This document shows, in pieces, positions 1 through 49,269 of a stretch of 50,695 nt of DNA. Every line of letters begins with the position of its first letter. The stretch's first letter is position 1. The position numbers and the translations under genes are program-made. Under the pieces are notes generated by a model that made no database searches, was not told the origin of the DNA, and saw only the letters and a program-made list of their open reading frames with translations. The DNA comes from a virus: the IMG/VR virus record IMGVR_UViG_3300042483_000433, positions 1-50,695 of that record. One strand, 5' to 3'.

Positions 1-3000
1 TGCTGTCTAAACTGGTTTAGCGCCGTGGTAAGACGCATAATAACGTCTCCAGCTGACTTTTTACCGTAGAGGTGGTTCTCAGCGGCGCGCTGGAATGGTA
101 GGGCCATGGCCTTATCCATAATTCCTGCAGAAACTACCTCATCAACTAGGTTGATGATTCGAGCCTCTTGCTTGTCAGAGGCTTTATCGTCTGCGACAGT
201 TGTAGGCACCACCTCTAGGCTCTTGGCTGGGAACTGAGCTGCGTAGTCTGCAGAACCGGCGTAGATGTTTCCACCCTTGTCGCCGGATAGGCTTAGTACA
301 TATCCGTAGCCGCCAGGTAGGTCTGGGTTTTTTACCTGCATGCCGTAGTCTAGATAGACTCCGTTAGCACTTAGGAAGTCGCGGGTGGCGTTAACTAGGG
401 ACTCCGGGAGAACCTTCTCCAGCGTGCGAAGCCCATTAGCCAGAATAGAGGCAGCAGGGAAGTCAACTAGAACGTGGTTTCCAACGATACCCATAGAGAT
501 ACCAGCGCGGCCAGTTGCGTTGTCGTGAACGTAAGAGCCAGCAGGTAGGTCCCGCAGTGGGTTAGTTGCTGGGACGTTTGCTTCGCTTCTTGGCTGTTCC
601 TGCCCTGAGGTTACTCCAGATTGAATGTTGTTAATCATAGAGGTAATGAGAGAGTTAATCTCTTCAGGGTTCATTCCCTCAAGGGATAGGATGTCGCCAA
701 CACGGCCAAGGATGTACTCGCTAGATGCCTGCTTATATGCTTCTTCAGCGGCTACATAGGCGTCGTAGTTCCAGTCGTTGTCAGAAGCGTCGTAGCTAAA
801 CTCTCGTCCGCCTACAGCAAGACCTCTAGAGGCTCGGTCAAGCATCTTCTGGAATACTTCAACGGTCGAGCTAACGTCGGCGTCAGCTTCGTGACGGCCG
901 TTGTTCGATAGACCGAAGTAGGTGACCAAAGCTTCAAGAGAGAAGGACTTGGTCTGCTCACCGCGGGCGTTGATCTTGAAAGGAGCGTCAGGGTTCTCTG
1001 GCGTCCACTCAGGCATGATGTAGCGAGCGAAACCAAGAGTATCAATCATGCCTGAAGGCTCTAGAGGTTCTAGACCAGCTTCAGCAATAGTGCGGTTGAT
1101 AACTTCCATGTCGAACAAAGTCGAGTTGTGTCCAGCAATAATAGCGCCATTTGGAATGAACTCTTTAAGCTGAGCCATAGTGTCTCGCTTAGTAGGGAAG
1201 CCAGATAGGAACTCCTGGGTGACACGTCCACCCTTACCGTCTCCAACGTTCTTTAGGGTATAAGAACTGATCTTAGACTGAGGGTTGATGTAGGTGGTGA
1301 AAGAGTCTACAGCCTGTAGGCCAGAGATTTTGGTAACAGCGATCTGGATAGGATCATTCTTGATTTCAAAGTCATCTAGATCAGTTAGTCCAGTTGTTTC
1401 AAGATCGAGAACATAGATGTCGTTGTTCTTTAGGAACTGGATAACATCGTTGTAGTTGCTCATACCGCGTAGTGGGTCAAGGCCCTCGCCAGCAAACGTA
1501 GGTGGGTAGAAGAACTTCATAGAAGGCTTTCTACTGGACGAAGACTCTTCAACAGCGTCTTGGTCTATCGGAGCAGATCCACCCTGCTTGTATAGGCCAA
1601 TAAGAGATCCAACTGCCGCCTGAGCACGGGCTAGAACTTCCAAGGCCTCCGGGGTCTTGTTCTTTAGGGTGCCCAGTGGGCTAGGCGATCCGTCTCCAGG
1701 AAGAATAGCGATCGCTATGTCGGATAGACGCTTGTCTACTTCCTTCTTGGTAAGCACGTTGGTGCGTCTTAGGTTTAGAACAGAGCGTAGGTCTGTAAGA
1801 CCTTCGATAGCTCCTCGGAGGATCTTGGCAGAGTCGGCTTTTACAGCAGTGCTAGGGCTAGACTCTAGCAGATCAGCAAGCTGCGCTGCAACGCCCGACA
1901 ATGCACGGCGGGTACGTGTTAGGTCAGCACGAAGAACTTCTCTCTGAAGGAAGTCGTCAAGGTCGTTGGCCTCAAGGGTAGACTCGTACTGTCTGATCTT
2001 AAGAACAGAGTTTAGGCCCTTAAGAGCGTTAAGCATGGCACTGCTAGGTGCAGAGTCAGCCTTGGTAGCTCCGTATAGGTCAAGCTGAGCATTAATCTCG
2101 TCTTCGGTGCTTCCTAGCCAAACTCCAGGCTTAGAGGGGGTATAGTTCTCTGGAATAGTTACAGTAGACTTAGCAGGAACGCGTAGGCCATTGATCTCGT
2201 AACCGTTTTCGATGCTTCGAGCTAGGACTGCGTCGTCATACTTGTCTTCTAGATCCTTAGCGGAAATTATGTACCTAGTGGCAACATCCTGGCCAAGCAT
2301 TGTAGGAACGTTCTTGGTGATCTCGTTCCAAGCCTCGTCTCCAATAAGACCCTTGATACGTGAACGCTCCAGGGAACGTAGCATACGTGGGGTAGGTCCA
2401 CCATCTTCTCTAGAGATAGTGGTGTGCAGCATATTAGGCTGAAACTGAGCCTTATATGGTAGCTGCTGGAACTCTTTGATGTAGCTCTGAATCAGAGGAT
2501 ACGGCATAGTGCGGTGCTCTGCAATAAGAGTGTCTAGATCTTTTTTAGCTGCAGGGTCAGAGAAGTCTTTGTTTTCAATCAAGGACTCAAGCATAACTAG
2601 CTGCATAGGCTTAGGTGCCGACTGCGCAGCAGTTAGGTCTGTTCCGAGATACTTAGGAGTAGCCGAGGATAGGTTCTTCGACTCAGCTGTTTCTTGTGCT
2701 GTCTTTGCACGACCAGCAATCTTCTCGTATTCTGGTACGTAAGGAACTAGCTCAGTGATGAGAGCGTTGATCTCATCATGGTCCATCATACGACGGCCCT
2801 TTAGCTTCTCCTGTAGGTCACCTGGTACGTCCTTAGACATTCCAATCATGGTGTCAACCAGGGCGCGGGTAGCGGTCGTTGCTAGTTTCTTTTCAGTAGG
2901 TTCTAGCTTGTTTAGGACATCCATAAACGCGCCGTAGTCTTTGTAGCTATAGACAGAAGGACGGGTAAGCATGTCATCAAATAGAATGACCATGTCTTCC

Positions 3001-5300
3001 GAAACCTTCTTAGAGCTGAAGGCACCCTTTAAGTCGTTTAGTAGAGGATAGAAAGCCTTACCGTCTCGGTCGACGCCCTGGGCACGCGGTGGGTACTTGT
3101 TAGGGTAAGCATTTGCCGGCTGAAGTTTAGGAATCCTTGCTGTCTCGGCGTTAACAGTTCCGGGCTCGTATTTAACTGGGGCCACAATAGGCTTGCGGTC
3201 TCCGTCCAGCGTTGCTCTAGGATCTGGAGTGATGGCCGGGAAGGTGTTTACTAGAGTAATCTGGGCCTTAATCTCAGCTTCGCCCATGCTTTTGTAGCTC
3301 TCTAGAAGAATCTTCTTAGCTTCTTCTGGAACATCTCGGTTTCTAAGAGAGTCACGCATTGCTTTGCGGTGGTAGATCTGAGCAGGCTTAACCCAACCGC
3401 CTGGACGTTCAGGAGATTCGTTGATTTTGATGAGCAAGGTCATAGCATTAGCGAAGGTATATCCCTGCCAGTCATTTGCAACCATTTCATCCCAGATGTC
3501 AGCGATACCGCCAGCTACCTCGTGCTTACCAATAGCGGCATAAATGCTGCGCTTCTGTGCATCTGATATAGGGTCGTTTGCTCCGGCTCTTCCACCGACA
3601 TTGGCATCCGGTTCGATGTACTTGGCGCGGTCTGGGTCTAGGTTCTCAGGGTCAAGCTTGGTAGGTGAGGCCATTTCCTCGACCTGGTCAACAGAGTCAA
3701 TGGCGTCAGATACGCCATTCCAGTCGAAAGACACTCCTCCAACAGCAGAGCCGTTGTCGGTGTTATAGATAGCAAATGCATCACTAACGGTTGCGCCCGT
3801 AGGGAGCAGGCCTTCCTGACCGGATGATGGGTCATAGGAGTAGACGTAATCTGCAGCAATGTCAGTAGGCCCAAACTTAGCCACGTACTTACCGTCAATA
3901 GAGTAGAAGGTGTTGTCGCCATTGTCATACCAAGTAGCAGGCACATTCTCTGAAGGGTTGTAGGAAGGTAGGTCAGGAACAAGTTCGTCCATGCTCTCCG
4001 GTGCGACCGGAGCTGCTGCAGGAGCCTCTTTAGGCTTCTTGGCGGCACTTTCTTCAACTGCAAGAGGCTCATTCTCGGCCTCTGGGTAGTTTTCGTCTTC
4101 GTCAGACGCAAACTTTTGTAGGGCGGCCCAGTCCTGAGAATAGCCAACAACTTCTGGCTGTCCGCGCTTGGTGGAGATAAGTTCGTAGACAGGCTTGTCT
4201 GGGTTTAGGGTGTCGGTACCCTGGTCGCTCACTACAAGAGCGCCAAACTTGTTCTGAGCTTCAGCGATACGCTTTCCTAGCTCTTCGTCAGGCTTGTTGT
4301 ATAGGTTAGCAATGTAGCCGTCACCAGTGGCGAAGAAACGGTCAGCCTTAACCTTGTTGTCGAGGTCAGTTTTGTCGTTTGAGCCCTTGGTTGCAAACCA
4401 GCTAGTAGGAAGTTCTTTACGAGTTAGTGAAGATAGGTCAATAGCGTTTAGGTTGTCGCCAGAAATACGAATACGCTTAGATACAGCGTGCTCCGGAAGA
4501 ATAGCCTTGAAGGAGTGGCCAGCGGCGGCAGGAATGGTGTAAATGCCGTCACGGATACCCTCAACGCCGATAACTTCAATGTCAATGCCTAGAGGGTCGT
4601 TTTCTGGGATACCAGCGACCTTACCAACAACAGAGAATACGCGACCGCGTAGGTCCCTAACGTAGAAGCGGTAGCCGCCACCCATTTCAGCAAACTGACC
4701 CTCATCGTCACGACGCTGCTTCTTAGCACGCATCGAACGGTGCCAGAAGCTGTTCTTTCCTGCGTATGGGTCACCAAAAGCAAGTAGAGGCTGGATTAGT
4801 AGGTCAGCAGGAACCTGACCTTCTTCTAGGCTCTCTAGGCGTGATAGGTGGTAGGCGTAGTCAACGGAAAGTGGGTTGCTTGCGTAAACAGCTGCAACAA
4901 TAGAGCGAACGTTCTCGTCGGTGATGCGTAGGTCAGCTGCAAGCCACTCTGCGCGTAGCATACGCTGAGCCGAAGCAGTCATAACTGCCGACTCTTTTGA
5001 GTTTGGGTGGCTAGCAGGTAGTAGGTCAGCGTGCTTGGTAACAATGTCCGAGATCGCGCCTTCTGTAGCAAACGTAATGAAGTTGGTTACTTCGCGAAGT
5101 GCTGCAAAGTAGCGAACATCTGGCTCAAGATCAGTGTTTGACTCTAACGCACGTTCAGCAACCTGGAAAAGAGTTTCCTCTTCAACCATACGGATAGCAG
5201 GGATCTCAGCGCGACGTGACTCAATGATGTCAACGATAGCGTGGCGGATTCCCCCTTCGTTCTCGAAGTTGCTGTCAAATTGATCGATTAGCTTGCTCAC
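1..5300 (-). CDS. Giant head-region protein with embedded DEDDh exonuclease domain (C-terminus outside window)
   Basis: Reading the minus strand from GTG at 5298-5300 gives at least 1766 codons without a stop, running off the left edge. AGGAAG lies about 10 nt before the GTG, and the previous gene stops 2 nt upstream. Residues about 1293-1485 show all three motifs of a DnaQ-type (DEDDh) 3'-5' exonuclease: LDLETTG (D1299, E1301), GHNSTLFDM (N1392, D1397) and HEADAD (H1470, D1475). The rest is not recognised: helical N-terminus, beta-rich segment near 230-330, Pro/Ala-rich linker near 415-430, long helical stretches to about 1270, then about 280 more residues after the nuclease. Its place directly after portal and Dps-fusion genes suggests a virion or assembly protein; that is inference. 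Confidence 0.85.
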   Translation of the reverse strand, partial: MSKLIDQFDSNFENEGGIRHAIVDIIESRRAEIPAIRMVEEETLFQVAERALESNTDLEPDVRYFAALREVTNFITFATEGAISDIVTKHADLLPASHPNSKESAVMTASAQRMLRAEWLAADLRITDENVRSIVAAVYASNPLSVDYAYHLSRLESLEEGQVPADLLIQPLLAFGDPYAGKNSFWHRSMRAKKQRRDDEGQFAEMGGGYRFYVRDLRGRVFSVVGKVAGIPENDPLGIDIEVIGVEGIRDGIYTIPAAAGHSFKAILPEHAVSKRIRISGDNLNAIDLSSLTRKELPTSWFATKGSNDKTDLDNKVKADRFFATGDGYIANLYNKPDEELGKRIAEAQNKFGALVVSDQGTDTLNPDKPVYELISTKRGQPEVVGYSQDWAALQKFASDEDENYPEAENEPLAVEESAAKKPKEAPAAAPVAPESMDELVPDLPSYNPSENVPATWYDNGDNTFYSIDGKYVAKFGPTDIAADYVYSYDPSSGQEGLLPTGATVSDAFAIYNTDNGSAVGGVSFDWNGVSDAIDSVDQVEEMASPTKLDPENLDPDRAKYIEPDANVGGRAGANDPISDAQKRSIYAAIGKHEVAGGIADIWDEMVANDWQGYTFANAMTLLIKINESPERPGGWVKPAQIYHRKAMRDSLRNRDVPEEAKKILLESYKSMGEAEIKAQITLVNTFPAITPDPRATLDGDRKPIVAPVKYEPGTVNAETARIPKLQPANAYPNKYPPRAQGVDRDGKAFYPLLNDLKGAFSSKKVSEDMVILFDDMLTRPSVYSYKDYGAFMDVLNKLEPTEKKLATTATRALVDTMIGMSKDVPGDLQEKLKGRRMMDHDEINALITELVPYVPEYEKIAGRAKTAQETAESKNLSSATPKYLGTDLTAAQSAPKPMQLVMLESLIENKDFSDPAAKKDLDTLIAEHRTMPYPLIQSYIKEFQQLPYKAQFQPNMLHTTISREDGGPTPRMLRSLERSRIKGLIGDEAWNEITKNVPTMLGQDVATRYIISAKDLEDKYDDAVLARSIENGYEINGLRVPAKSTVTIPENYTPSKPGVWLGSTEDEINAQLDLYGATKADSAPSSAMLNALKGLNSVLKIRQYESTLEANDLDDFLQREVLRADLTRTRRALSGVAAQLADLLESSPSTAVKADSAKILRGAIEGLTDLRSVLNLRRTNVLTKKEVDKRLSDIAIAILPGDGSPSPLGTLKNKTPEALEVLARAQAAVGSLIGLYKQGGSAPIDQDAVEESSSSRKPSMKFFYPPTFAGEGLDPLRGMSNYNDVIQFLKNNDIYVLDLETTGLTDLDDFEIKNDPIQIAVTKISGLQAVDSFTTYINPQSKISSYTLKNVGDGKGGRVTQEFLSGFPTKRDTMAQLKEFIPNGAIIAGHNSTLFDMEVINRTIAEAGLEPLEPSGMIDTLGFARYIMPEWTPENPDAPFKINARGEQTKSFSLEALVTYFGLSNNGRHEADADVSSTVEVFQKMLDRASRGLAVGGREFSYDASDNDWNYDAYVAAEEAYKQASSEYILGRVGDILSLEGMNPEEINSLITSMINNIQSGVTSGQEQPRSEANVPATNPLRDLPAGSYVHDNATGRAGISMGIVGNHVLVDFPAASILANGLRTLEKVLPESLVNATRDFLSANGVYLDYGMQVKNPDLPGGYGYVLSLSGDKGGNIYAGSADYAAQFPAKSLEVVPTTVADDKASDKQEARIINLVDEVVSAGIMDKAMALPFQRAAENHLYGKKSAGDVIMRLTTALNQFRQ

Positions 5301-5302
5301 GC

Positions 5303-7375
5303 TTACCAGTCTTCCTGTTCTTGCTTCGGTAGTAGATCCGAATCTTCGCTGTTGTATAGGTCTATAGCCAGTCTAGCCGCTCTGTCAAAAGCTGACTCGT
5401 TGTTAGCCACCCCGCGACGCCATGCGGCACGGAAAACTGGAATAGATTCATATCCTAGTCCCGAGTACTCTGCCATTGCAACTAAGGCTTGCTCTGGAGA
5501 TTCATACATGCTCTCGTCGCTGAGTTCAATGTAAAGTTCGCGTTCCGCAAAGGCCGATGCGGTCAAGGATGTGCTGCTGTTAGTGCTCTTAGGGTGTGCA
5601 TCTGGCAGTAGGTCATTGTCGGTGGTGTACTTAGCGTTGGTAGGCTTACCTGACTTAACTAGGTGCAAGAATGCGTTAACGCGGCCCATGGCCCACGAGT
5701 TACGGTTCTGGTCTGGGCGGTGGGAAGTTGAGAACGCACCTGCGCCACGGCGGTAAACTGCCTTGAGCATAGAGAGGGTGACCTTCTTGCCATCAGCAGA
5801 GACGCTCTCGTTGTGGGACTTGACTTTTTCCTTTAGAGACTTCTCAACGGCAGCGGAGAAGTTTACCTTGCGTCCGGTGGCTGCCGAACCCTTCTTGTTT
5901 TTGCTAGAGCCCTTGATTTGGTCTTTCTTTGGTGCTGGCTTTGATCCGGCGGTGGCAGTTACGGACTCTTCCTTCTGGACGTCCTCTGTAATGGGGCCGC
6001 CAGCTGCCCAGGCGTTACAGGTACGGCTAGCAGCACACTTGAAGTCAAGGGCGGTGCAGTAGCCAAGCTCAGCCTGGTCGATTGAGTCCCAAGCACTTTG
6101 CTCGCCAGAGCCACCTTCGGCTAGGCCAGTCTCGATGCAGTCTAGGGTCTTTGGACGGCGGTCGAAGAACACGCAGTTACCGCAGATGCTCTTCTTGGCT
6201 TCAGCTGGGTCAATGTCCCAACGGTCAGCCTTGTCTTGCCAGAACTCTTCATTAGGTTCGGCTGGGTTTAGTGGGCCATAGCCAACACCGTCAATCGCCT
6301 TCTGGCGGTTCTTGATGTTTAGAACAATGTCCTGGGTTGCAGGAGGGCATTCGCCTCCGTAGTCAGCATCAGCAAGTAGAGTGCTAGCCTTAGGCTTCTT
6401 TACCTTGCTCATGTCGAGGATTTCTGCCGGGGCACCTGCTCCGCCAGAGAACTCGCCAGGTAGCATCTCGTGGTCGTGCTTGTATGGCTCGTTCTTTGGT
6501 GCTTTGCTTGGGTCAACAGTGCCGTCAGGTAGAACCGCGAAGCGGCAGTACCCTTCTGGCTCAACTGCAAACGCAACTACGGCACATTCCTGACCGCCGC
6601 GATACAAAACACAGTTCCCACACTTAACGCCCATCTCGGCGTAAGGGTTGTCTTTTGCTTCATGGTAGTCTGCCCAAATGCCGGTGTTGTCCTCGTCGAA
6701 CTTGCCGTACTTGTCGGCAATCTCAATGAGGGCTTGGGCTAGGTCTGCTTCTTCTGGAACTAGGTGTCCAGCTGCAAGCAGCGAGAGGCGGATCGACTCA
6801 GGGGTAGGCTGAAGTTCTGGTAGTGACATATCGTTATCGTTGTCAACTACTTCTAGAAGAACTCCAGCCTTAGATTTTCCCATATCAAGAGTCTGGATCT
6901 GCATGGAGTCAGCACCAATGGTGGTTCCAATCTTCCAAGACCACTTCGAGTGTGCATCCATGCGGCCTGCGGCCCAGTCTGCGATACCCTGCATGCCGAT
7001 TGCGGTTGCTAGGTTGAAGATATCCTCAACGCAGTTGTGGAGAACGATGTTTGCCTCGTAGAGGTTAGCTGCCATCTCCATTGGGTTGCCAGCAGATGGC
7101 TTAGAGTCTAGGCACGCTAGTGCTAGGAACTCCTGCAGTGAGTGTGGAGCGTCATAGCCAACAATGCGGATGTACTCAGCAATGCGGTCTTCTTCTCCTG
7201 CCCAATCTTCGTAGATCTCACCAAAGAAGTCGTGGAACTGAGTGAACTCAGGCCCCTTGACGTTCCAGTGGTAGCCGTGGGCCATATATTGAGCAACAAC
7301 CGTGGTGCCAAGAAGCATGGCGAGCTTTTGCGCCAACCCTTCCTTGCTGTAGTTGTCTGGTCCTTCTGGATTCAT
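5303..7375 (-). CDS. Dps-like ferritin domain fused to Cys-cluster and C-terminal phage head-associated domains
   Basis: 690 aa. Residues 1-160 read as a Dps/ferritin: AHGYHWNVKGP with H36, then H48, D63 and E67 at the spacing of the Dps ferroxidase ligands; the residue matching E. coli Dps D67 is Gly52. Residues 250-280 hold four Cys (C252, C255, C264, C277) in CGNC...GYCRF, and a second CGNC cluster follows near 390-450. A Lys-rich linker leads to a C-terminal segment containing VYRRGAGAFSTSHRP and a DNDLLP motif seen in actinophage head-gene polyproteins. AAGGA precedes the ATG. It lies 13 nt after the portal stop and 2 nt before the giant ORF, so it is probably co-transcribed with both. 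DNA protection or iron-cluster chemistry in the capsid is inference. Confidence 0.85.
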   Translation of the reverse strand: MNPEGPDNYSKEGLAQKLAMLLGTTVVAQYMAHGYHWNVKGPEFTQFHDFFGEIYEDWAGEEDRIAEYIRIVGYDAPHSLQEFLALACLDSKPSAGNPMEMAANLYEANIVLHNCVEDIFNLATAIGMQGIADWAAGRMDAHSKWSWKIGTTIGADSMQIQTLDMGKSKAGVLLEVVDNDNDMSLPELQPTPESIRLSLLAAGHLVPEEADLAQALIEIADKYGKFDEDNTGIWADYHEAKDNPYAEMGVKCGNCVLYRGGQECAVVAFAVEPEGYCRFAVLPDGTVDPSKAPKNEPYKHDHEMLPGEFSGGAGAPAEILDMSKVKKPKASTLLADADYGGECPPATQDIVLNIKNRQKAIDGVGYGPLNPAEPNEEFWQDKADRWDIDPAEAKKSICGNCVFFDRRPKTLDCIETGLAEGGSGEQSAWDSIDQAELGYCTALDFKCAASRTCNAWAAGGPITEDVQKEESVTATAGSKPAPKKDQIKGSSKNKKGSAATGRKVNFSAAVEKSLKEKVKSHNESVSADGKKVTLSMLKAVYRRGAGAFSTSHRPDQNRNSWAMGRVNAFLHLVKSGKPTNAKYTTDNDLLPDAHPKSTNSSTSLTASAFAERELYIELSDESMYESPEQALVAMAEYSGLGYESIPVFRAAWRRGVANNESAFDRAARLAIDLYNSEDSDLLPKQEQEDW

Positions 7376-7388
7376 AATTTATTTTTCC

Positions 7389-9167
7389 TTACTGGGGGAT
7401 TTCGGATTCGGTGGTAGTTGGTTCAGCTAGCTGGATTGGTGACTCTTCAGCTAGAGGTGCCGGGGCTGGAGCTTCTTCAGCGGGAGCCCCTTCGGCTGCA
7501 GGTGCAGTCGGTGTCTGTCCCTGAAGTGCTTGAGACAGGTCATCTGGGATTGGACCTACTGAAGTGCCCTGCTGAGCCTGACGTGCGGCTTCAATAATCT
7601 CTGGAGCAACTGCTGCAAGCATTGCTTCGCTGAGTTCAGGCGTAATCATACCCTTCTCAAGCAAAATACGTAGTCCAAGCTCTGTTGGGCTAGGTGCATC
7701 TGCCTCCGAGAAGCCGTGAGCACGTCTCCAGGTCTGGAAAGACACTGCCATGCGGTCGAAACCGTTGTCTGCGTCCATCGCACGGTCGTTTCGGGTAGCA
7801 ACGGCGCTTGGGTCGTACCAAATTACGATTCGGTCAACGTCAGCTTCGCTGTAGCCGTTCGCAATTAGGTAAGGACGGAGGTAAACAACGGTCAAAGCGT
7901 CTGCAATGAGCAACATTAGAGGTTCAATGTGTGCTTTGTAGAGTGCTTCGTCGATTTGGAGGGCGTTTGAGTATTTAACATTGGCCAAACCGGTCACAAT
8001 GTCCTTCGGAACGTCCAAACCTTGCAAAATTCGCTCCAAAACGCGGTCTGCACGCTGTGCAAGGGCTGGGTCGAAGCTTCTTTCGAACTTAAACTGCTTA
8101 ATTTTGTCGCCAAGCTCGGCTGGACCACGAATTACAAGCGGAACAACGGCTGAAGCGCTGTCTTCGTCGCGAATTGGGGTGGTCATAGCGTCAATTAGCT
8201 GATCTTCGAACTCATCGGCCATTTCTTCCGGAGTTGGGTCAGAATATAGGCCATCTTCGTCTTCATAAGGGTAATTTGGGTCCGGAGTGGCCGCTACAGA
8301 CAGTCCATCAGGCAAATATAGGGCTCCAGCGTTCAAACGGGAGCGTGCGGTGGCACGGAAGGTGCGGTTTAGGAGCAAAAGCTCGGCACACATGTCCAAA
8401 AGGCCACGTAGGCTTGAGTCTGCCTCGTCTGAGTAACGTGGGTGAGCACGCCAAATACGTCCAACGAACGCATTTTTAGGTAGACGGAGAGCTCCGCGAG
8501 CATTTCCGTTCATGGTCGAGGTGCCAGCCTGGTATTCGCGACGTCCGGCAATGATGTAGTTGCCTTTTGCGTCCATGCTTAGCTCGTCAACGGAGCGGAT
8601 GTCCCAAGATTCAGGAGTTCCGGTACCTGGAAGTACAGGCATCTGAACTAGGTAGCACTCACCGGTGGTAAGAAGGTTTAGGGCAGCGTCGCGGAGCAAG
8701 CCTGCCTGGCCTCCGTAGGCGCTGTCTAGACGAATCAGGGCGCGTTCTGCAGCCTGAGCTAGGTCTGGGTCAAGGTTCGCAACCTGGCGAACTGGCTTCG
8801 GGGCCTCTGATGGGTCCTGAACAATAGCTGCGTAAAGACGAATACGAGATACAACCGAGGCAACTAGGTTGAAGGCGTACTTGACTTCACCAATCGCGTC
8901 GTAGTATTCCCACGCTTCGGTCTGCCAGCTAGAAGATTGTGCAATGCGACGGTTTTTGAAGCGGTCTGCTTCGCCCTTGTCGTTTAGGTTTACTTGTACG
9001 GCCGCGGCAACAAGCGGGCGGAGTACGGAGTAGGCGGCGGCGGTTGCGCGGCCCTGCTCGCTCAAGAATACTGAGTTAGGTGGGAGTGCTGCAGCTGGCG
9101 TAGGGATAGCTGACGCACGCAGCGGTTGAGAGTTAGCGGCTCTCTGGTTACGGCTAAAAACGCCCAA
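7389..9167 (-). CDS. Portal protein
   Basis: 592 aa. It resembles actinophage portals in length, position after terminase and before head proteins, and in the N-terminal helical segment WQTEAWEYYDAIGEVKYAFN. A portal ring would form the DNA entry vertex. The C-terminal 60 residues are Pro/Ala/Glu-rich and probably disordered. The start is TTG at 9165-9167 because AGGAG lies 6 nt upstream and no in-frame ATG is better placed. Confidence 0.82.
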   Translation of the reverse strand: MGVFSRNQRAANSQPLRASAIPTPAAALPPNSVFLSEQGRATAAAYSVLRPLVAAAVQVNLNDKGEADRFKNRRIAQSSSWQTEAWEYYDAIGEVKYAFNLVASVVSRIRLYAAIVQDPSEAPKPVRQVANLDPDLAQAAERALIRLDSAYGGQAGLLRDAALNLLTTGECYLVQMPVLPGTGTPESWDIRSVDELSMDAKGNYIIAGRREYQAGTSTMNGNARGALRLPKNAFVGRIWRAHPRYSDEADSSLRGLLDMCAELLLLNRTFRATARSRLNAGALYLPDGLSVAATPDPNYPYEDEDGLYSDPTPEEMADEFEDQLIDAMTTPIRDEDSASAVVPLVIRGPAELGDKIKQFKFERSFDPALAQRADRVLERILQGLDVPKDIVTGLANVKYSNALQIDEALYKAHIEPLMLLIADALTVVYLRPYLIANGYSEADVDRIVIWYDPSAVATRNDRAMDADNGFDRMAVSFQTWRRAHGFSEADAPSPTELGLRILLEKGMITPELSEAMLAAVAPEIIEAARQAQQGTSVGPIPDDLSQALQGQTPTAPAAEGAPAEEAPAPAPLAEESPIQLAEPTTTESEIPQ

Positions 9168-9202
9168 AATCGGCTCCTGTCATTTATAACGGAACGGTGT
9201 TA

Positions 9203-9502
9203 CTAATCAACCCGTGCGGTTATTATTCCTGCAACTGCCGAAAGGGCTAGCGGCAAACTGAATATTACCGCTGTTGCTGTATCTATTGTATACCAGATTG
9301 TAAGGAGTGATCCGAACCATATGGACATACACCACACGCATGTAAATAAGTAACCCGTTAGGGTCTCTGGTCCCTTACGTCGCCAAATGGCTTGACGTAG
9401 GGAATCAAAGATTGTGTCTATCGTGAACAGACGTGCCAGGCGGTACGTCGCTAAGGATAGAAGAATAAAGTGGAAAAGGTCGGGGGCGGTTGTATTAAGC
9501 AC
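9203..9502 (-). CDS. DUF1360-like small membrane protein
   Basis: 99 aa. LATYRLARL near the N-terminus, then CVWCMSIWFG and hydrophobic segments, match the DUF1360 pattern of phage and Gram-positive membrane proteins of unknown function. GTG start with AAGGA 5 nt upstream; it overlaps the end of the upstream gene by 8 nt, so translation is probably coupled. Confidence 0.7.
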   Translation of the reverse strand: MLNTTAPDLFHFILLSLATYRLARLFTIDTIFDSLRQAIWRRKGPETLTGYLFTCVWCMSIWFGSLLTIWYTIDTATAVIFSLPLALSAVAGIITARVD

Positions 9503-9863
9503 TCGGATCCTTCATGGAGCTGAGGGTGCGGTATGGGTTCCAGCCTCGCAGGGTGGATCCGCAGCCGCAGTTGGTGTCTTTCTTAAAGGCGATGGTTTTG
9601 CCGGACTTGGCAACAACGTAAGTGTCTAACTCTGGACGTCCAGATTTTACGAAGGACTCGTACGGCTCTTTGAACATAATCTGAGGGCCGCCAGGACCGT
9701 CCTGCGCAACAACAATCTCAACGTCGGTAACAATAACGCGGGTCTTCTGCAGATAGTAGGCGTCGGCGGACGGAGGTGAAGATGACATACTCTGGACGTC
9801 GCTATAGGTGTTGGGAGCGGCAATGACAAAGTGCGCTGGAAATACGTCGTAGAGAATCTGCAT
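9495..9863 (-). CDS. Hypothetical head-cluster protein
   Basis: 122 aa, not recognised. It ends with a Cys-rich motif (NCGCGSTLRGWNPY) after a mainly beta-type body. It sits between the HTH gene and the DUF1360 gene with almost no spacing, in the packaging/head operon. No enzyme motif is visible. Confidence 0.7.
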   Translation of the reverse strand: MQILYDVFPAHFVIAAPNTYSDVQSMSSSPPSADAYYLQKTRVIVTDVEIVVAQDGPGGPQIMFKEPYESFVKSGRPELDTYVVAKSGKTIAFKKDTNCGCGSTLRGWNPYRTLSSMKDPSA

Positions 9864-9867
9864 ACGG

Positions 9868-10395
9868 TTAGTCTACCTTACTTTGTTGGAGGGTTTGCAA
9901 ACGTCGGGCGATTGCGCGGTGGGTAACGTTGGCAGCGCGGGCAATGTCGGCAATAGAGACGTCGTTGGCGCGGAGTTCGAGCACTAGTTGGTTCATTTCC
10001 TCGTTGGCTTTGGCGTAGGGGTGGCCGGCGGGCATGCGGTGGCGGAAGAGGCGGGCTTGAGGAGCTAGGTCGCGGAGACGTTCTTCGGTGTGGGGCGGGA
10101 CTCCGGGGGAGACGGGGGTCAGACGTTGGTATCCACCTTCAGGGGTGCGGAGACGAGGGATAGGGACGTCGACGTCAGTAAGATCTTTAACAGACGGGTT
10201 AGGGTAACGATCAACCCAGGACTTGATTGTCGAACGGGTGCGGGTAGGGGAGAGGGCGTCACCGATTGAGGCCAACGTCCAGCCAGCGTGATATAGGGCG
10301 GAGGAGCGTTTGTGGAGGTTGGTTCCAGAGAGGGAGTTGATGAAGGCCACCTCTTTTTCGGGGAGGGACTGGAGTCGTGCGTATCTTCTGGACAT
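9868..10395 (-). CDS. Double helix-turn-helix DNA-binding protein, candidate small terminase subunit or regulator
   Basis: 175 aa with two HTH-like segments: residues about 35-65 (AGWTLASIGDAL... TIKSWVDRY) and about 145-170 (VSIADIARAANVTHRAIARRL). Its position upstream of portal and near terL fits a small terminase. The 50-bp inverted repeat over its promoter also allows an autoregulator. No ribosome binding site precedes the ATG; a TACAAT box lies 7 nt upstream, so the mRNA may be leaderless. Confidence 0.7.
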   Translation of the reverse strand: MSRRYARLQSLPEKEVAFINSLSGTNLHKRSSALYHAGWTLASIGDALSPTRTRSTIKSWVDRYPNPSVKDLTDVDVPIPRLRTPEGGYQRLTPVSPGVPPHTEERLRDLAPQARLFRHRMPAGHPYAKANEEMNQLVLELRANDVSIADIARAANVTHRAIARRLQTLQQSKVD

Positions 10396-10403
10396 GGAAC
10401 TAT

Positions 10404-10453
10404 TGTATCATAGTTTCGTGCAATGTTTACGTACTGTACGAAAGAATGATACA
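10404..10453. promoter_or_regulatory. Large inverted repeat overlapping the promoter of the HTH gene
   Basis: Arms TGTATCATAGTTTCGTGCA (10404-10422) and TGTACGAAAGAATGATACA (10435-10453) match at 16 of 19 positions as an inverted repeat around a 12-bp centre. The left arm covers the TACAAT -10-like box. Candidate operator or packaging-protein site. Confidence 0.6.
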
Positions 10454-10543
10454 TTAACTTTTTTAGGCTTTGGCCTGCGAGTTGGAAGTAGTATAATTTC
10501 GGGTTCGCCAAATTCGTTTCCTGATGTTAATTGGTGAATTTCT

Positions 10544-10613
10544 GTTACCAATTTGTTATCAAAAAAGTCTGCCAATTTGTCCAAATAACCTAGACAAGTT
10601 GCCAATTTGTTGC
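10544..10613 (+). repeat. Three CCAATTTGT direct repeats upstream of the 10669 gene
   Basis: CCAATTTGT occurs at 10548, 10572 and 10602, each preceded by TTA, CTG or TTG. Spacings of 24 and 30 bp resemble a small set of protein-binding sites; the last copy overlaps the -35 box. Confidence 0.45.
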
Positions 10614-10627
10614 TAGGTTTTTAGGTA
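10599..10627 (+). promoter_or_regulatory. Promoter of the 10669 gene
   Basis: TTGCCA (10599-10604), 17-bp spacer, TAGGTA (10622-10627). Weaker -10 than the array promoters. Confidence 0.4.
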
Positions 10628-10668
10628 TCGGGTAGGCAACCAGCCAGCCCACAACGAAAGGTAACAAA

Positions 10669-10887
10669 ATGGAAAAACTAATGGTGCGAATTCTAGGTCT
10701 AGCAATTGCGATTGGTCTAGGTTCTTTTGTTGGTGCTTTACTCACTATCACAACACTAGGCGAGAGCGAATTGGAGAGAACAATTCAGGGTAGTTGGATA
10801 CTCTTTGATTTGGTTCTCTCCTTTGTGTGTCTGCTAGTGTCTGGAATTATTTTTGCTATCTATCCCCTAGTAGTCAAAAAAGACTAA
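10669..10887 (+). CDS. Small two-helix membrane protein
   Basis: 72 aa with two hydrophobic segments (residues about 7-30 and 42-67) and a KKD tail. AAAGG lies 8 nt before the ATG. One of two small plus-strand genes inside an otherwise minus-strand packaging region, each with its own promoter and terminator. Function unknown. Confidence 0.75.
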   Translation: MEKLMVRILGLAIAIGLGSFVGALLTITTLGESELERTIQGSWILFDLVLSFVCLLVSGIIFAIYPLVVKKD

Positions 10888-10903
10888 CCAGCCAGCCAGC
10901 GAG

Positions 10904-10928
10904 CCCCCGCCTAATCAGCGGGGGTTTT
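10904..10928 (+). terminator. Intrinsic terminator of the 10669 gene
   Basis: CCCCCGC / GCGGGGG stem followed by TTTT. Confidence 0.8.
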
Positions 10929-10933
10929 GCTTT

Positions 10934-11450
10934 ACCCAGCCCAAGCCCAGCCAGCCCAAGCCCAGCCCAGCCAGCCCAAGACACGCCACCGCATACACAC
11001 ACGCCACCAGCCCAGCCAGCCCAAGACACGCCACCGCATACACACACGCCCAAGACACGCCACCGCATACACACACGCCACCAGCCAGCCCAGCCCCAGC
11101 CAGCCCCAGCCCAACCAAACTAGACACACAAACACAAACACAAAACATAGACGGATTACATAAACGGATTAGGCACACGCCCAAGACACACCACCGCAAG
11201 CCAGCCAGCCCAAGCCCAGCCCAGCCAAACACGCCACCGCAAGCCAGCCAGCCAGCCAGCCAGCCCAAGCCCAGCCAGCCAGCCAGCCAGCAAGCCCAAG
11301 CCCAAGCCCAAGCCCAAGCCCAGCCAGCCAGCCAGCCAGCAAGCCCACGCCCAACCCCCAGCCCAAGCCCAAGCCCAAGCCCAAGCCCAAGCCCAAGCCC
11401 AAGCCCAAGCCCAAGCCCAAGCCCAAGCCCAAGCCCAAGCCCAAGCCCAA
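10934..11450. repeat. C-rich low-complexity repeat tract ending in (GCCCAA)15
   Basis: About 515 bp built from CCAG, CCCAAG and CCCAG words. A 25-bp unit beginning ACACGCCACCGCATACAC recurs at 10981, 11026 and 11055. 11361-11450 is 15 uninterrupted copies of GCCCAA; the minus strand reads (TTGGGC)15, a G3N3 series able to form G-quadruplexes. ACGGATTA occurs twice near 11150-11170 and twice near 11459-11480. Reading frames here are only repeats; no gene is supported. Confidence 0.85.
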
Positions 11451-12049: not shown

Positions 12050-13450
12050 TTAGCGAACGCGAAAGAAGCCTCCACCACGATTAGGCTTGCCATTATCGAT
12101 TCTGCGAGCTCCCATGGAGCGAGCAGTAATCTTTCCTCCAGAGAATCCCATTGGAGGCTTGATAAGTAAGGCAGTCATAGCGTGGACCATAGCATCTACT
12201 CTGTCTGGTGATTTACCTTCTCCTGGTACCCAGGAGTACATCTGACTTTCCAAGTCAGGAAGGTAGCCAACGTGGTGAACACGACCTTGCTCATAAGCAA
12301 GGGTCACAGGCTCAGCACGAAGTGCTTTACCATGCTTGCTATGGACCTCCAACACTTTGATGTTGGGGTCGATAGCATTGATAGCATTGCGAACCAGGGC
12401 TCCACCCTGATTCACTTCTGCTACAACAGGACAGCCCCACTTCCGGGCCATACGAACAACTTCGTTAGCCCACTTCTCTGGAGAGCCAAGGATGGAAGCA
12501 TCTTCCAGGACCCAGGCCTGCCTCTTGTAGAGGTCCCTGTCTGATGTGGCAGCACAGACAACAATGCCACACTCATCACGTGGGTTCTCTGCCACTGATG
12601 GGTCCACTCCAATGATACGAAGTGGAGTGCCTTGAGGCATGAACGATGCTCGATATTGTTCGATGAGCTCCTCTGTCCAGAGGGCTCCTTCGACATCATC
12701 AAGCATCTCACCATAGAGTTCCTGGGCAGCCAGGCGTGTGCCTGCGTAGACGCCAGTGATGGCGTCGAGGTAGGCACCTGATAGGTTACCTGAGTTGTCG
12801 AGAGTAGAACCACGAGTGATAACTACTCGACCTGTCTTAGATTCCTCGATGAGTTTGTAGAGCAGAGGTACTCTCTTGGGTGTAGTGGTCACCATAATCT
12901 TTGGGTGACTACCAAGACGAGTACCAACACGAAGGTTGTCAAAAGCAGTCATGCCTGCTGCGTCAGGGGTCTGACGCCAGGCAGCAATCTCATCGCCCCA
13001 GGCGTGAGTGAACTGAGGACCACGAAGTGAGTCAGGCTCGTCTGCTGTGAAGCAGGTGGCAGTGTTGCCATTGGGCCAGGTCAACCTTCTCTTGGAAGGT
13101 TCATAGAGTGGGCGTTCACTAGGAGGAGTCACATTCATAATGCCAGACTCACCTTCAACAATAACGTCACGAACATCTGCTGCTGTACGAGCAACAAGGG
13201 CGAAGCGACGCTGTCCCTCTGTTGTGTACTTGGCCTGCTCTCTTACCCACTCAGCAGCAGTCCTGGTCTTGCCAGCACCACGACCAGCGATGTATGCCCA
13301 TATGGCCCAGTCACCTTCAGGTGCCTGCTGCTCAGGCCTGCCCCAGACTGACCAGTCCCAGAGCAGGATATCAGGGTCCATGCCTTGTAAGGCAAGAGCC
13401 TGCTGCTCTGGGCTCATCAAAGATATCTGTTCCATCAGGCTTTTAGCCAT
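12050..13450 (-). CDS. terL: Terminase large subunit
   Basis: 466 aa. Walker A AGRGAGKT near residue 60, Walker B region HAWGDEIAAW near 150, then nuclease-type motifs GVDPSVAENP, VAEVNQGG and DRVDAMVHA in the C-terminal half: ATPase plus RNase H-like nuclease, the motor that cuts and packages phage DNA. ATG at 13448-13450 is preferred: ACTGGAG lies 9 nt upstream. An in-frame TTG at 13459 would add three residues but lies next to the SD. The start overlaps the small upstream ORF by 8 nt. Confidence 0.95.
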   Translation of the reverse strand: MAKSLMEQISLMSPEQQALALQGMDPDILLWDWSVWGRPEQQAPEGDWAIWAYIAGRGAGKTRTAAEWVREQAKYTTEGQRRFALVARTAADVRDVIVEGESGIMNVTPPSERPLYEPSKRRLTWPNGNTATCFTADEPDSLRGPQFTHAWGDEIAAWRQTPDAAGMTAFDNLRVGTRLGSHPKIMVTTTPKRVPLLYKLIEESKTGRVVITRGSTLDNSGNLSGAYLDAITGVYAGTRLAAQELYGEMLDDVEGALWTEELIEQYRASFMPQGTPLRIIGVDPSVAENPRDECGIVVCAATSDRDLYKRQAWVLEDASILGSPEKWANEVVRMARKWGCPVVAEVNQGGALVRNAINAIDPNIKVLEVHSKHGKALRAEPVTLAYEQGRVHHVGYLPDLESQMYSWVPGEGKSPDRVDAMVHAMTALLIKPPMGFSGGKITARSMGARRIDNGKPNRGGGFFRVR

Positions 13451-13610
13451 CGAGTTCAACTCCAGTCATGTGTATATTTAGTGATACAGGCTGTGCCTGC
13501 AAGGCAGTGATTGCTTCTACGAGAGCGGGACGAATGTCCTCGACGATAGTCGAAGCTCGAGTAGGAGCGATAGCTGACTTGAAGTTAGATTCTTTATTGA
13601 ATAGACACAA
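13443..13610 (-). CDS. Small ORF overlapping and upstream of terL
   Basis: 55 aa from TTG (13608-13610). ACTGGAG is 9 nt upstream, the same sequence and spacing as at terL. The stop overlaps the terL start (ATGGCTAA), indicating coupled translation. The sequence is helical, with ...STIVEDIRPALVEAI..., and has no recognised domain. It sits where small terminase genes often lie but is shorter than known ones. Confidence 0.55.
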   Translation of the reverse strand: MCLFNKESNFKSAIAPTRASTIVEDIRPALVEAITALQAQPVSLNIHMTGVELDG

Positions 13611-14840: not shown

Positions 14841-15512
14841 CTATGGCTGTTCCACCTTAGCTAGTTGCCCATGTTTCATTGCAAAGGTCTGCTGATCCTC
14901 TGGCAAGGTGTCCAAGATTCGGACGTACTTGACTTTGGCCCAGTTTGCTTTAGCAACACCGGCTACGGAATCTATACGGGTACGAGTACCTGCGTAGTAG
15001 GCGTGGATCATCTTGCCATTGCCGGTATAGATACCGACGTGGAAAGATCGTTTACCACTTCCGTAGTAGAAGGCAACAATGTCTCCGACCATCGGCTGCT
15101 TGACAACTTTGCCTGAGCGCATTTGTCGAGTAGCAGAGTGGTCGAGTGTTACTCCCACTTGTCCATAGGCCCACCGCACGAGACCAGAGCAGTCCCAGCC
15201 TCGAGGAGAAGAACCGGAGAAGACATACCATGTCTTGTTCTTGTACTTCGTTACCTTCTTGACTAGGGTAGCGATCTTGCCTTTGTTGGCGAATTGCTTT
15301 TGGACTGTGCGCTGCTGTTGCTGAAGTTTCTTAGCCTTGACTATAGATCCGTGGAGGACCGAAGATAAGGGCGTGCTCTTCGACAGCGCATTTTCGATAT
15401 TCAGTTGTATTGGTGTTGGTTTAATTGCGGCGCTGGCTGGTTGGACTGATGTAGCTGTGCTACATGAGGCCAAGAGCAGTACCAGTGCTCCAATCGTTAG
15501 TAACCTTTTCAT
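14841..15512 (-). CDS. NlpC/P60-family lipoprotein, cell-wall hydrolase
   Basis: 223 aa. The N-terminus (MKRLLTIGALVLLLASC) is a signal peptide with lipobox, so the protein should be exported and lipid-anchored. Residues about 105-190 carry the NlpC/P60 Cys motif RGWDCSGLVRWAYG and the His motif HVGIYTGNGKMIHA of gamma-D-glutamyl peptidases. A Gln-rich coil separates anchor and enzyme. A phage-borne anchored hydrolase could aid lysis or block superinfection; both are inference. Confidence 0.85.
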   Translation of the reverse strand: MKRLLTIGALVLLLASCSTATSVQPASAAIKPTPIQLNIENALSKSTPLSSVLHGSIVKAKKLQQQQRTVQKQFANKGKIATLVKKVTKYKNKTWYVFSGSSPRGWDCSGLVRWAYGQVGVTLDHSATRQMRSGKVVKQPMVGDIVAFYYGSGKRSFHVGIYTGNGKMIHAYYAGTRTRIDSVAGVAKANWAKVKYVRILDTLPEDQQTFAMKHGQLAKVEQP

Positions 15513-33621: not shown

Positions 33622-35433
33622 TCAGTAAGCGTTTCGCTTACCAATGCTTTCGAGAGCCTTTGCCCCAGCCTCACCAATCAGGATTGCCGATTGCTCAACC
33701 GACTTGCCAGATAGCGAAACAGCGTGAGCCGAACTGCCAGCCCCGAAGTAGTTTTCGACCTGTGAGGTGCTGTTGTCGAAAGTCAGCCAGAGAACCGCCA
33801 CGCCAAGTCTGTCGCACTCGGCAATCCACTTCTTAGCGTGGCTTGGCTCTGACCCTGCGTAGTGTCCGTCAGAAACGATTACCAGCAACCTCGCACCTTT
33901 TCCGTCTAGCAAGTTGAGGTGTCCGTCAATGGCTCGGAACGCTTGGTCGAACTTCTCTGTTCCGTCTGGGGCTGTGTAGACCCTGACTTCATCAAGTGGC
34001 TCACCTTTTCTAAGCGTTGGGAATACGCCAGAGCCGAAGTAGACCATAGCAGTTGAGGCTTGGATACGCCGACCAGCGTTTGCCAGCACCCACGCTGTAA
34101 TCGCCATTGGTGTCATAGCCCCACCCATTGAGCCTGAAATGTCTACCATTACTCCAATGGACAAGGTTGGCTCGTCTGTGTGCTTGCGAGTTTTGTGTTC
34201 CCACGCCTCGACCTGCGTGTGGATACCTTTTGATTTGAGAGCCTGTGCCTGAACCAATGCCCTCGACTTCAAGCGACCCTGTGGCAAGACCGAGCGAACG
34301 ATAGTTACATCACGCTCGCGATACTTTGCCTTTTCTAACATCTGGGCGACCTTGACCGAGGCTACTCGCTCAACCGAGGTTGGCTTGCGAACTTCGGAAA
34401 GTTTTGAGGAGGAGGAGGTTTCACCAGCACCAGAGTTCTTGGCAAAGGTCTTGTTAGCCTCTTTCTTGTTTTCATCTCGGCGTTTGCTGTCGTTGGACTT
34501 TTCCTTGACTTCGTTCTCCCAGCGTTCGTCTTGTTGCTGGTCGCCAATCTCAACGACAACTTGGAAACCTGTTTCCTCCGCACCATTTTCGAGAGCCTCT
34601 TTGATTTTGTCAATCATCTCTTGGGGCATTGGGAAACCACAGCCACCCTCGCCACCCTCGCCCTCGCCCTCGCCCTCGCCATTCTCTTTGGCTTTGTCCT
34701 CGACCAACTTATCCCACTCGATAGCAAGTTGGTAAAGAGGTTCAGCGTTGTTGTGGATTGTGTAGTTTTGAGCCTTACGCCAGATAGTGCGTAGTTGCCC
34801 ATAAAGTTCTTCACCGAGGTTGAACTTCACTAGGTCAATCACATCTGCTACATCAGAAAGTTCCAAAACGCCAGCATCAATTCTTGCCCCGACCAGCCCT
34901 GCGATTTTGGCACAGGCTCGCGTGGTGCTGTGTAGTCCGAGGTCGTCTGGGTTGAGGTCAGCGATAACGATTTCCATAGCACAGGCTCGGAGGAACACTC
35001 TGTTCTTCGGGAAAGTCAAAACGCCCATAGCCTCAATGCGACCCTCCTCTAACAAGTGGAGTGCCTCATTCTGCCCTCTGGTCAAATCTTCGTTGGACTT
35101 CATCAAATCCCATTGAGTGAACCGAGCGTGTAAGGCTTCGTGGAGGATAGCACCTGTGGCTCTTGGGAACTCGAACATCATTTCCCTATCGTTCAGGTCG
35201 CCAATGATTTCTGGTTCAGTAACCCCGAAAGCCACTTTGGTATTGACTTCGATTTCTGCTGTGCGTGGGTCGAATAGGGCTGGGGCTGGGGCAGACATAA
35301 CCTCACCAACATAAACCACTAGGTCGTTTCGTTCAGCCCACTTGTTTACAAGTTGCCCAACCTGTGAGCCAACTTTGAGCCACTCGCTAGGAGTGTTCTT
35401 TACTGCTGTTTTGCTAGTTCCGAAGTGCGACAT
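33622..35433 (-). CDS. Metallopeptidase-like plus VWA domain protein (CobT-like)
   Basis: 603 aa. Residues 90-140 carry HEALH (H98-H102), a zinc-peptidase-type motif as in the DUF2201 N-terminal family. A Gly/Glu-rich linker lies at 250-270. From about 425 there is a VWA domain with MIDAS motif D431-x-S433-x-S435 (MVDISGSMGG) and a later VSDGH. The AAA protein encoded upstream (35564) is its likely ATPase partner, as in CobS/CobT and MoxR/VWA pairs. Target unknown; remodelling or proteolysis of a host or phage complex is inference. Confidence 0.85.
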   Translation of the reverse strand: MSHFGTSKTAVKNTPSEWLKVGSQVGQLVNKWAERNDLVVYVGEVMSAPAPALFDPRTAEIEVNTKVAFGVTEPEIIGDLNDREMMFEFPRATGAILHEALHARFTQWDLMKSNEDLTRGQNEALHLLEEGRIEAMGVLTFPKNRVFLRACAMEIVIADLNPDDLGLHSTTRACAKIAGLVGARIDAGVLELSDVADVIDLVKFNLGEELYGQLRTIWRKAQNYTIHNNAEPLYQLAIEWDKLVEDKAKENGEGEGEGEGGEGGCGFPMPQEMIDKIKEALENGAEETGFQVVVEIGDQQQDERWENEVKEKSNDSKRRDENKKEANKTFAKNSGAGETSSSSKLSEVRKPTSVERVASVKVAQMLEKAKYRERDVTIVRSVLPQGRLKSRALVQAQALKSKGIHTQVEAWEHKTRKHTDEPTLSIGVMVDISGSMGGAMTPMAITAWVLANAGRRIQASTAMVYFGSGVFPTLRKGEPLDEVRVYTAPDGTEKFDQAFRAIDGHLNLLDGKGARLLVIVSDGHYAGSEPSHAKKWIAECDRLGVAVLWLTFDNSTSQVENYFGAGSSAHAVSLSGKSVEQSAILIGEAGAKALESIGKRNAY

Positions 35434-35491
35434 TTGTTTTCCTCTCGTTTGTCGTCTAAGTCCAAGTTACCAGATTTGATTTGTTTGTCAA
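35434..35491 (-). promoter_or_regulatory. Promoter of the VWA gene
   Basis: TTGACA (35486-35491), 16 bp, TAACTT (35464-35469). RBS GAGAGGAAAACAA. Confidence 0.7.
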
Positions 35492-35505
35492 GTCTGATAA
35501 AAAAC

Positions 35506-35537
35506 GAGGGAGGGTAGTGGGGGAACTACCCTCCCTC
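35506..35537 (-). terminator. Terminator of the AAA gene
   Basis: Perfect 12-bp stem GAGGGAGGGTAG / CTACCCTCCCTC, then GTTTTTT. Confidence 0.9.
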
Positions 35538-35563
35538 TCAACAAAATCTAGTTGGACAAATAA

Positions 35564-49077: not shown

Positions 49078-49269
49078 TTATGCACGAACAACAAAAGCGA
49101 ATCCAAGCAAGTTCCAGAGAACGTTGAACATAATAGTGGAGATAACGAACTCCCAAAGAGCACGGTCACGCGACCAGAACAAGATGATGAAGATCCCTAG
49201 AAGATAAACAAGAAGTCCCGGAATCGAGAACAACCACGGCCCCATAGTAACTACGCCATAAGAATCCAT
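49078..49269 (-). CDS. Small membrane protein
   Basis: 63 aa, two hydrophobic segments, start overlapping the thyX stop (TAATG). Function unknown. Confidence 0.7.
   Translation of the reverse strand: MDSYGVVTMGPWLFSIPGLLVYLLGIFIILFWSRDRALWEFVISTIMFNVLWNLLGFAFVVRA

Follow-up and report, generated by a model that had tools for sequence, protein, structure and literature searches.

An intact DEDDh exonuclease module in a giant, predicted polyvalent protein encoded in a phage head gene cluster

The window analysed here is the whole 50,695-nucleotide stretch of IMG/VR virus record IMGVR_UViG_3300042483_000433 (positions 1 to 50,695). From position 5300 to position 3 on its minus strand runs a single frame that starts with GTG, two bases past a Dps-fusion gene, and continues for 1766 codons with no stop before leaving the window's left end. 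The first-pass annotation had described a frame of at least 1766 codons following portal and Dps-fusion genes, and had proposed extending the contig to find its C terminus; frame and coordinates are right, and the extension shows the gene to be longer. A 75.6-kb contig (L003, as a genome G001) covers window positions 1–11322 (11,322-base overlap, one mismatch, 99.99% identity) and carries the complete gene at L003:6023-15514, which encodes a protein of 3163 amino acids, hereafter giant 1, of which the windowed part is the first 56%. Misassembly behind the frame was ruled out, as it is intact across many independent contigs.

Giant 1 and its gene neighbourhood

The genes of the head cluster considered here are:

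Window 12050..13459, minus strand: terminase large subunit, anchor of the head/packaging module (Pfam, PHROGs)
Window 7389..9167, minus strand: portal protein (phrog_776, E=7e-102)
Window 5303..7375, minus strand: Dps/ferritin-DUF5824 fusion, 690 amino acids (Pfam, PHROGs)
Window 3..5300, minus strand: giant protein 1, N-terminal 1766 of 3163 amino acids (open frame and overlapping contig)
L003:11321-15514: giant protein 1, C-terminal 1397 amino acids (overlapping contig)

The cluster is ordered portal, Dps fusion, giant 1, giant 2, S78-like protease protein and major head protein (phrog_777). Giant 2, the gene next to giant 1, encodes 4294 amino acids with a second DEDDh exonuclease, its catalytic set intact, a Dda/PIF1-type helicase and two HExxH sites at which zincin matches are sub-threshold only. 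It may also contain a GNAT-like stretch (sub-threshold match) and, judged by eye and not confirmed by Pfam, a ParB-like stretch. The 1500-amino acid protein after it has a weak, sub-threshold match to the S78 prohead protease. Together the two giants take up about 22 kb of coding DNA.

Elsewhere on the overlapping contig, outside the head module, are genes for a family-A DNA polymerase (PolA) with exonuclease, a PrimPol-D5 primase-helicase, an SNF2 helicase, a PD-(D/E)XK nuclease and an AAA_24 ATPase; family-A polymerases are present in seven other related records. Because PolA and PrimPol-D5 are encoded separately, the enzymes of the giants constitute a second DNA-enzyme set, and the phage can replicate with others. 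This favours action of the giants' enzymes at a different time or site.

The remainder of the window encodes two probable lysis or entry enzymes, an NlpC/P60 protein near the terminase (14841-15512, minus strand) and an M23 peptidase with a peptidoglycan-binding domain (46990-47820, plus strand); an AAA_5 (MoxR-like) ATPase beside a VWA/CoxE-like protein (sub-threshold), a possible MoxR-VWA pair (33622-36604, minus strand); a ThyX-type thymidylate synthase (Thy1, E=1e-50; 49269-49964, minus strand); and an 890-amino acid open frame with no Pfam match on the strand opposite most genes (43864-46536, plus strand).

Domains, conservation and relatives of giant 1

Within the 1766-codon frame, RNase_T is the sole Pfam domain above threshold. 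Over the full protein the Pfam order is RNase_T (residues 1297-1483), UvrD (1838-2481), DNAG_N (2853-2973) and Toprim (2981-3072). The exonuclease module and its catalytic residues, the latter taken from an alignment of copies, lie at the following positions:

Window 816..1448, minus strand: DEDDh exonuclease module, residues 1285-1495 (Pfam match at 852-1412)
Window 1404..1406, minus strand: catalytic D1299
Window 1398..1400, minus strand: catalytic E1301
Window 1110..1112, minus strand: catalytic D1397
Window 891..893, minus strand: catalytic H1470
Window 876..878, minus strand: catalytic D1475

A complete DnaQ-like catalytic set had been placed near residues 1299-1475 from the letters of the sequence, and these five residues, at those numbers, bear that out. 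PF00929 (RNase_T) matches residues 1297-1483 over profile positions 2-164 of 164 (E=7.3e-15, 56.3 bits, cut-off 24), phrog_192 (‘DNA polymerase exonuclease subunit’) matches at E=4e-28 and NCBIfam PolC/DEDD models at 1e-17 to 1e-19; the closest solved sequence is the PolC-type exonuclease of PDB 2p1j (E=9e-7). By these comparisons the domain is an intact DnaQ/PolC-like DEDDh 3′-5′ exonuclease with an H-x4-D site, its activity being predicted. Its conservation puts it far beyond chance. All five catalytic residues are identical in every one of the 23 non-identical copies in which the whole site is aligned, and 11 further copies, in which the last motif is unaligned, keep the first three. Between G001 and G002, the two nearest genomes, the exonuclease shows 96.7% identity and a dN/dS of 0.043, the lowest among eight segments compared; it is the most constrained segment and is under purifying selection.

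Downstream, the UvrD-type SF1 helicase has Walker A (AGVGKTT at 1843) and Walker B (LDEAQD at 2062) motifs and matches FBH1, and both UvrD halves are present (PF00580 over the cut-off, PF13361 slightly under). The DnaG-type primase core combines DNAG_N (PF08275, E=3e-33) with Toprim, contains the acidic primase motifs VEGQFDVL and FDPDEAG, and matches solved DnaG chains at E=4e-44. The N-terminal zinc-binding domain zf-CHC2 found no Pfam match across the 3163-amino acid protein at E<=0.1, so the claim is restricted to a primase core, and priming activity is uncertain.

The other well-conserved region is the N-terminal domain (NTD):

Window 4071..5300, minus strand: NTD of giant 1, residues 1-410 (41-sequence alignment and AlphaFold2)
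Window 4674..4718, minus strand: near-invariant QRRDDEGQFAEMGGG stretch, residues 195-209 (alignment and predicted disorder border)

Residues 1-410 are the best-conserved long part of the protein, at 55-61% identity to more distant members of the close group. An AlphaFold2 model built from the 41 sequences (mean pLDDT 83, pTM 0.50) divides the NTD into a helical part A (1-172), a conserved but disordered linker (173-206) and a small β-rich part (209-404). The most invariant stretch, with the consensus QRRDxxGxFAxMGGG, sits at the edge of the predicted disordered segment, a position that fits a binding signal, and is a candidate targeting signal. Fold searches with the NTD returned no significant match, and no PHROG family covering the query NTD was found. 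Its pieces recur among its neighbours: a homologue of part A lies near the C terminus of the Dps fusion (window 5537-5851; residues 15-114 of part A against this protein, E=8e-10) and also in the upstream neighbours of many other lineages, and the QFAEMGG part is found again at the start of giant 2, likewise in many lineages. Neighbouring proteins of the head cluster are thus predicted to share loading-type modules, with the conserved NTD as a candidate capsid-loading module, and the Dps-like fusion protein may sit in the phage head. That fusion, directly after the portal gene, also holds two CxxC-rich stretches.

A direct scan for relatives gave 14 loci and a profile scan 104 matches, 80 of which were kept. 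The family comprises about 100 related giants, and the domain is thus not an isolated oddity; the close relatives are all uncultured contigs. The first-pass annotation had named, as evidence that would count against it, absence from virions together with a frame break in other isolates, or mutated catalytic residues in relatives. More than 15 complete relatives (~2,400-3,500 amino acids) keep the frame open throughout, and the catalytic residues are unmutated wherever the domain is present.

The payload behind the NTD varies. The exonuclease is present in most relatives long enough to reveal it, helicase motifs are less widespread, and the primase is rarer again. The homologues in phages DSL-LC01 and Mimi lack the exonuclease: a check by Pfam and motifs found neither RNase_T nor DNAG_N nor any recognised Walker motif in the DSL-LC01 protein, and helicase motifs but no DNAG_N in that of Arthrobacter phage Mimi. 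Domain matches of our own profiles in these two were discarded as circular, both proteins being in the seed alignment. With neither exonuclease nor primase in either, the payload is not fixed. DSL-LC01 is a genome from a lake metagenome assigned to Actinomycetia (PMC10611076). Among the nearest cultured phages are Mimi, whose gp77 combines NTD part B with UvrD, and Microbacterium phage Zooman (gp70, gp72). In the orthologue L013, the C-terminal part of giant 1 (L013:14646-15797) carries MPTase-PolyVal (E=6e-30) and ArdcN (E=1e-7) domains, which were not found in the query giant 1 itself, and the C terminus of giant 1 in L071 has a HELxH motif; these other domains, where no primase was found, represent payload exchange at the same place. 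In G011 (contig of L049), a 5861-amino acid open frame contains DNAG_N, the primase there being in giant 2 rather than giant 1. Judged by the portal, the closest known phages have Microbacterium, Arthrobacter and Gordonia as hosts, which makes an actinobacterial host likely; a scan of bacterial genomes found no relative, and hence gave no prophage or host assignment.

Repeated motifs at domain borders

Short peptides recur between the domains of giant 1. Beyond the windowed part one copy, IEEMAA, lies at residue 1785; three are in the windowed part:

Window 4041..4058, minus strand: linker motif VEESAA, residues 415-420, directly after the NTD (motif search)
Window 3666..3683, minus strand: linker motif VEEMAS, residues 540-545 (motif search)
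Window 1536..1553, minus strand: linker motif VEESSS, residues 1250-1255, before the exonuclease (motif search)

In G001 the pattern [VI][ED]E[SMFL][AS][SAT] occurs 12 times, six times in each giant, and not once in the ~19,700 amino acids of the other frames, the capsid, Dps and protease proteins among them. The motif is confined to the giants in related genomes as well (12 of 12 copies in G002), although each lineage has its own: [IL]D[KR]M[AS] in G003 (14/14 in the giants), IEDM[AS] in L004 (5/5), [IL]xKK[AM]xS in L052 (5/5 in giant 1), PIVD[RA] in L049 (4/4 in the two giants) and Q[LF]M[ASE]F in G004, G005, L012 and L015. In L009, 8/8 copies fall in the giants. A universal motif, [VIL]xE[x][AS][AS], was rejected, as it holds for G001 and G002 only. 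In the giants at L056:9926-19951 and L054:9935-21166, GFxQxPG recurs about every 100-250 residues (15 and 21 copies, respectively), and these chains possibly hold many separate small proteins. The segments between the copies in L056, the one of the two that was scanned, contain no clear Pfam domain.

The motifs were sought as over-represented k-mers with shuffle controls. Top scores were 16-31 in G001, G002, G003, L009 and L004, against a shuffle maximum of 11-13; those of G004 and G005 were barely above shuffles, and their motif comes from site inspection. An expectation-maximisation motif finder, which the k-mer method replaced, yielded diffuse motifs with near shuffled-sequence scores among the motifs listed. 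For the more distant clades, LPx[VI][DSE] was dropped because its counts were near shuffled values, and in several of them no comparable motif was recognised.

The codons of the motif vary between copies, which indicates selection on the peptide. Among the sequences inspected, the exonuclease is preceded by a motif of the local type in 11 of 11 and UvrD in 10 of 10, and in G001, G003, L009, L052, L054 and L056 a copy stands directly behind the NTD. Exonuclease-side and helicase-side peptides match better within genomes than across them: only 2 of 720 permutations were as good, for motifs spotted by inspection in six clades, a small number. This pattern suggests processing sites that co-evolve with a protease, and each motif is most likely a cut site, for the putative giant 2 zincin or the prohead protease. 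The lack of the motif in the capsid protein does not favour a general prohead protease and leaves room for a docking motif.

That the peptide is instead a docking site or structural spacer, each domain binding one partner such as scaffold, portal or chaperone, is a serious although less probable explanation. It would account for the missing copies in the capsid and protease proteins, which deprive the motif of an obvious prohead-protease signature. The prohead protease of phage SPN3US recognises A-x-E and cuts behind it, favouring V at P4 and S at P1′; this partly resembles VEE↓S and does not fit IDKM, IKKM or QLMAF (PMC10052503). Against docking, the copies stand at domain borders, one right behind the NTD in several lineages and one ahead of each enzyme domain, places at which release would be useful, and change of the whole set between lineages is typical of protease sites.

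A polyprotein strategy in tailed dsDNA phages can be put forward tentatively, in which two head-loaded giants would be cut at a short lineage-specific motif into entry enzymes, with the sites having changed together within each lineage through co-evolution with one dedicated protease, as in RNA-virus polyproteins. The proposed products would be two exonucleases, two SF1 helicases and a primase. Being defined in sequence, the domain-border motif offers a direct test of cleavable polyproteins in tailed phages.

Proposed function and comparison with known systems

Our preferred reading, to which we assign a probability of about 0.7, is that the frame forms the 5′ portion of the gene for a 3163-amino acid phage polyvalent protein that is loaded into the head, ejected and active on the incoming genome, its linkers being cut. 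Giant 1 joins disparate domains in one polypeptide and is encoded near virion genes; this location, its size and its mix of domains, together with the MPTase-PolyVal and ArdcN domains of L013, fit the polyvalent class. In the mechanism that we envisage, giant 1 would be produced late, alongside the head genes, enter the prohead through its NTD and leave along with the DNA on ejection. Once in the cell, the exonuclease would trim or proof-read ends and nicks of the incoming genome, the UvrD helicase would unwind it and the DnaG-type primase would lay primers on it, all before the phage's own PolA and PrimPol-D5 are made. Cuts at the linker motifs, made by the prohead protease or by a putative zincin of giant 2, would free the enzymes from one another.

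The first-pass annotation had supposed a nuclease in a structural or injected polyprotein that might trim host DNA or process ends at entry or packaging. An intact DEDDh domain in a giant, polyprotein-like head-cluster protein agrees with this, and the protein is most likely injected; ‘structural’ in the sense of capsid-building is not upheld. Nor is a role in packaging: a chain of exonuclease, helicase and primase would better suit the processing of ends or nicks and the priming of an entering genome, and the companion UvrD and DnaG domains, like the ArdC-N and metallopeptidase of orthologues, suggest work on DNA right after it has entered.

The injected enzymes might instead be directed at the host, with exonuclease and helicase degrading its DNA or disarming a nucleic-acid-based defence. 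Domains of the DEDDh and UvrD kinds are known from defence systems as well and are hit by models of a defence library; a part in conflict has been suggested for polyvalent proteins (PMC5512222), and giant 2 adds a second exonuclease-helicase pair. We nevertheless consider this role unlikely: the primase that shares the polypeptide points to phage DNA as the target, DEDDh enzymes depend on free 3′ ends and would put a linear phage genome at risk as well, and no defence-specific partner was seen. We also think it improbable that giant 1 is a replication or repair multienzyme merely encoded among late genes, acting late (for example on concatemers before packaging) and left unpackaged. Its domains are of ordinary replication and repair types (PolC exonuclease, UvrD/FBH1, DnaG), and a nuclease with a helicase could resolve replication intermediates for terminase; however, a separate PolA, PrimPol-D5 and SNF2 set is encoded in another module, the N-terminal modules are common to two neighbouring head-cluster proteins, and the ArdC-N and polyvalent metallopeptidase of the orthologues make most sense at entry. 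Finally, although giant phage genes gain and lose domains, as DSL-LC01 and Mimi illustrate, the notion that the exonuclease is a captured, functionless relic is scarcely credible given 23 intact sites in 23 fully aligned copies, the lowest dN/dS, an intact copy in giant 2 and, with these, purifying selection.

If giant 1 is delivered as this preferred reading holds, a DNA-processing and priming kit would reach the cell ahead of all phage gene expression, changing the view of the first minutes of infection. Packaging and injection are, for giant 1 as for most polyvalent proteins, a class-level prediction. Orf10 of Gordonia phage GMA2 (L043:7981-10632), encoded after the portal gene and labelled ‘putative structural protein’ by its depositors, whose virions were analysed by mass spectrometry by the authors, was set aside as proof of packaging, as it has no similarity to the NTD. 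By eye it contains ADP-ribosyltransferase-like and 2H-phosphoesterase-like stretches, and it is perhaps a detected polyvalent protein.

Polyvalent proteins, encoded near late genes, are described as jump-starting replication (PMC5512222). Giant 1 resembles those of phages in being very large, in joining disparate enzymes and in lying beside the virion genes of portal-terminase phages, and its orthologues carry MPTase-PolyVal and ArdcN; giant 2 has two HExxH sites. In contrast, the founding survey contains no DEDDh/DnaQ exonucleases, no phage Toprim primases and no repeated lineage-specific linker motif: ‘DnaQ’, ‘DEDD’ and ‘linker’ have 0 occurrences in it, Toprim primases in polyvalent proteins are said to be encoded "never by phages", and ParB-type DNases of such proteins are said to occur with no other DNase domain alongside (Iyer et al. 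2017, PMC5512222).

Among conjugative plasmids, TraC of RP4 and Sog of R64 are also Toprim primases that enter the recipient with DNA, and TraC1 is fused to a metallopeptidase (PMC5512222); these, however, involve a plasmid, single-stranded DNA and type IV secretion, whereas here a primase is joined to an exonuclease and a helicase in a tailed dsDNA phage. The virion RNA polymerase of coliphage N4 is a giant multidomain late-gene product that is packaged and ejected as a first-step nucleic-acid enzyme (PMC5512222, PMC4496689), as predicted for the delivery of giant 1. The N4 enzyme is packaged unprocessed (PMC5512222) and transcribes, whereas giant 1 would process or prime DNA. No sequence relation between the two was seen.

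The internal proteins of T4 belong to the head, are trimmed at a short motif by its prohead protease and accompany the DNA on ejection. Ejected head proteins of the SPN3US/phiKZ type, too, leave with the DNA and are trimmed at a short motif by a prohead protease (PMC10052503), as is predicted for the giants. There, mostly N-terminal propeptides are removed, whereas each giant has up to 6-8 motif copies (15-21 in L056 and L054) between enzyme domains and the capsid protein has none. The exonuclease has the same DEDDh motifs as the PolC-type enzyme of PDB 2p1j but lies in a head-cluster protein, where it is joined to a UvrD helicase and a DnaG core and not placed beside a polymerase.

Among full-text papers outside subscription journals, no description of a giant with this exonuclease-helicase-primase arrangement was found. 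The polyvalent class is known; what is new is a DEDDh exonuclease as a conserved core domain, the triple exonuclease-helicase-primase architecture, an N-terminal module without PHROG or fold match that is common to neighbours, the lineage-specific domain-border motifs and, contrary to the founding survey (PMC5512222), a phage-borne Toprim primase in a predicted polyvalent protein. Together, these features suggest a phage whose particle is loaded with a ready set of DNA-processing enzymes, which may be cut apart from one another.
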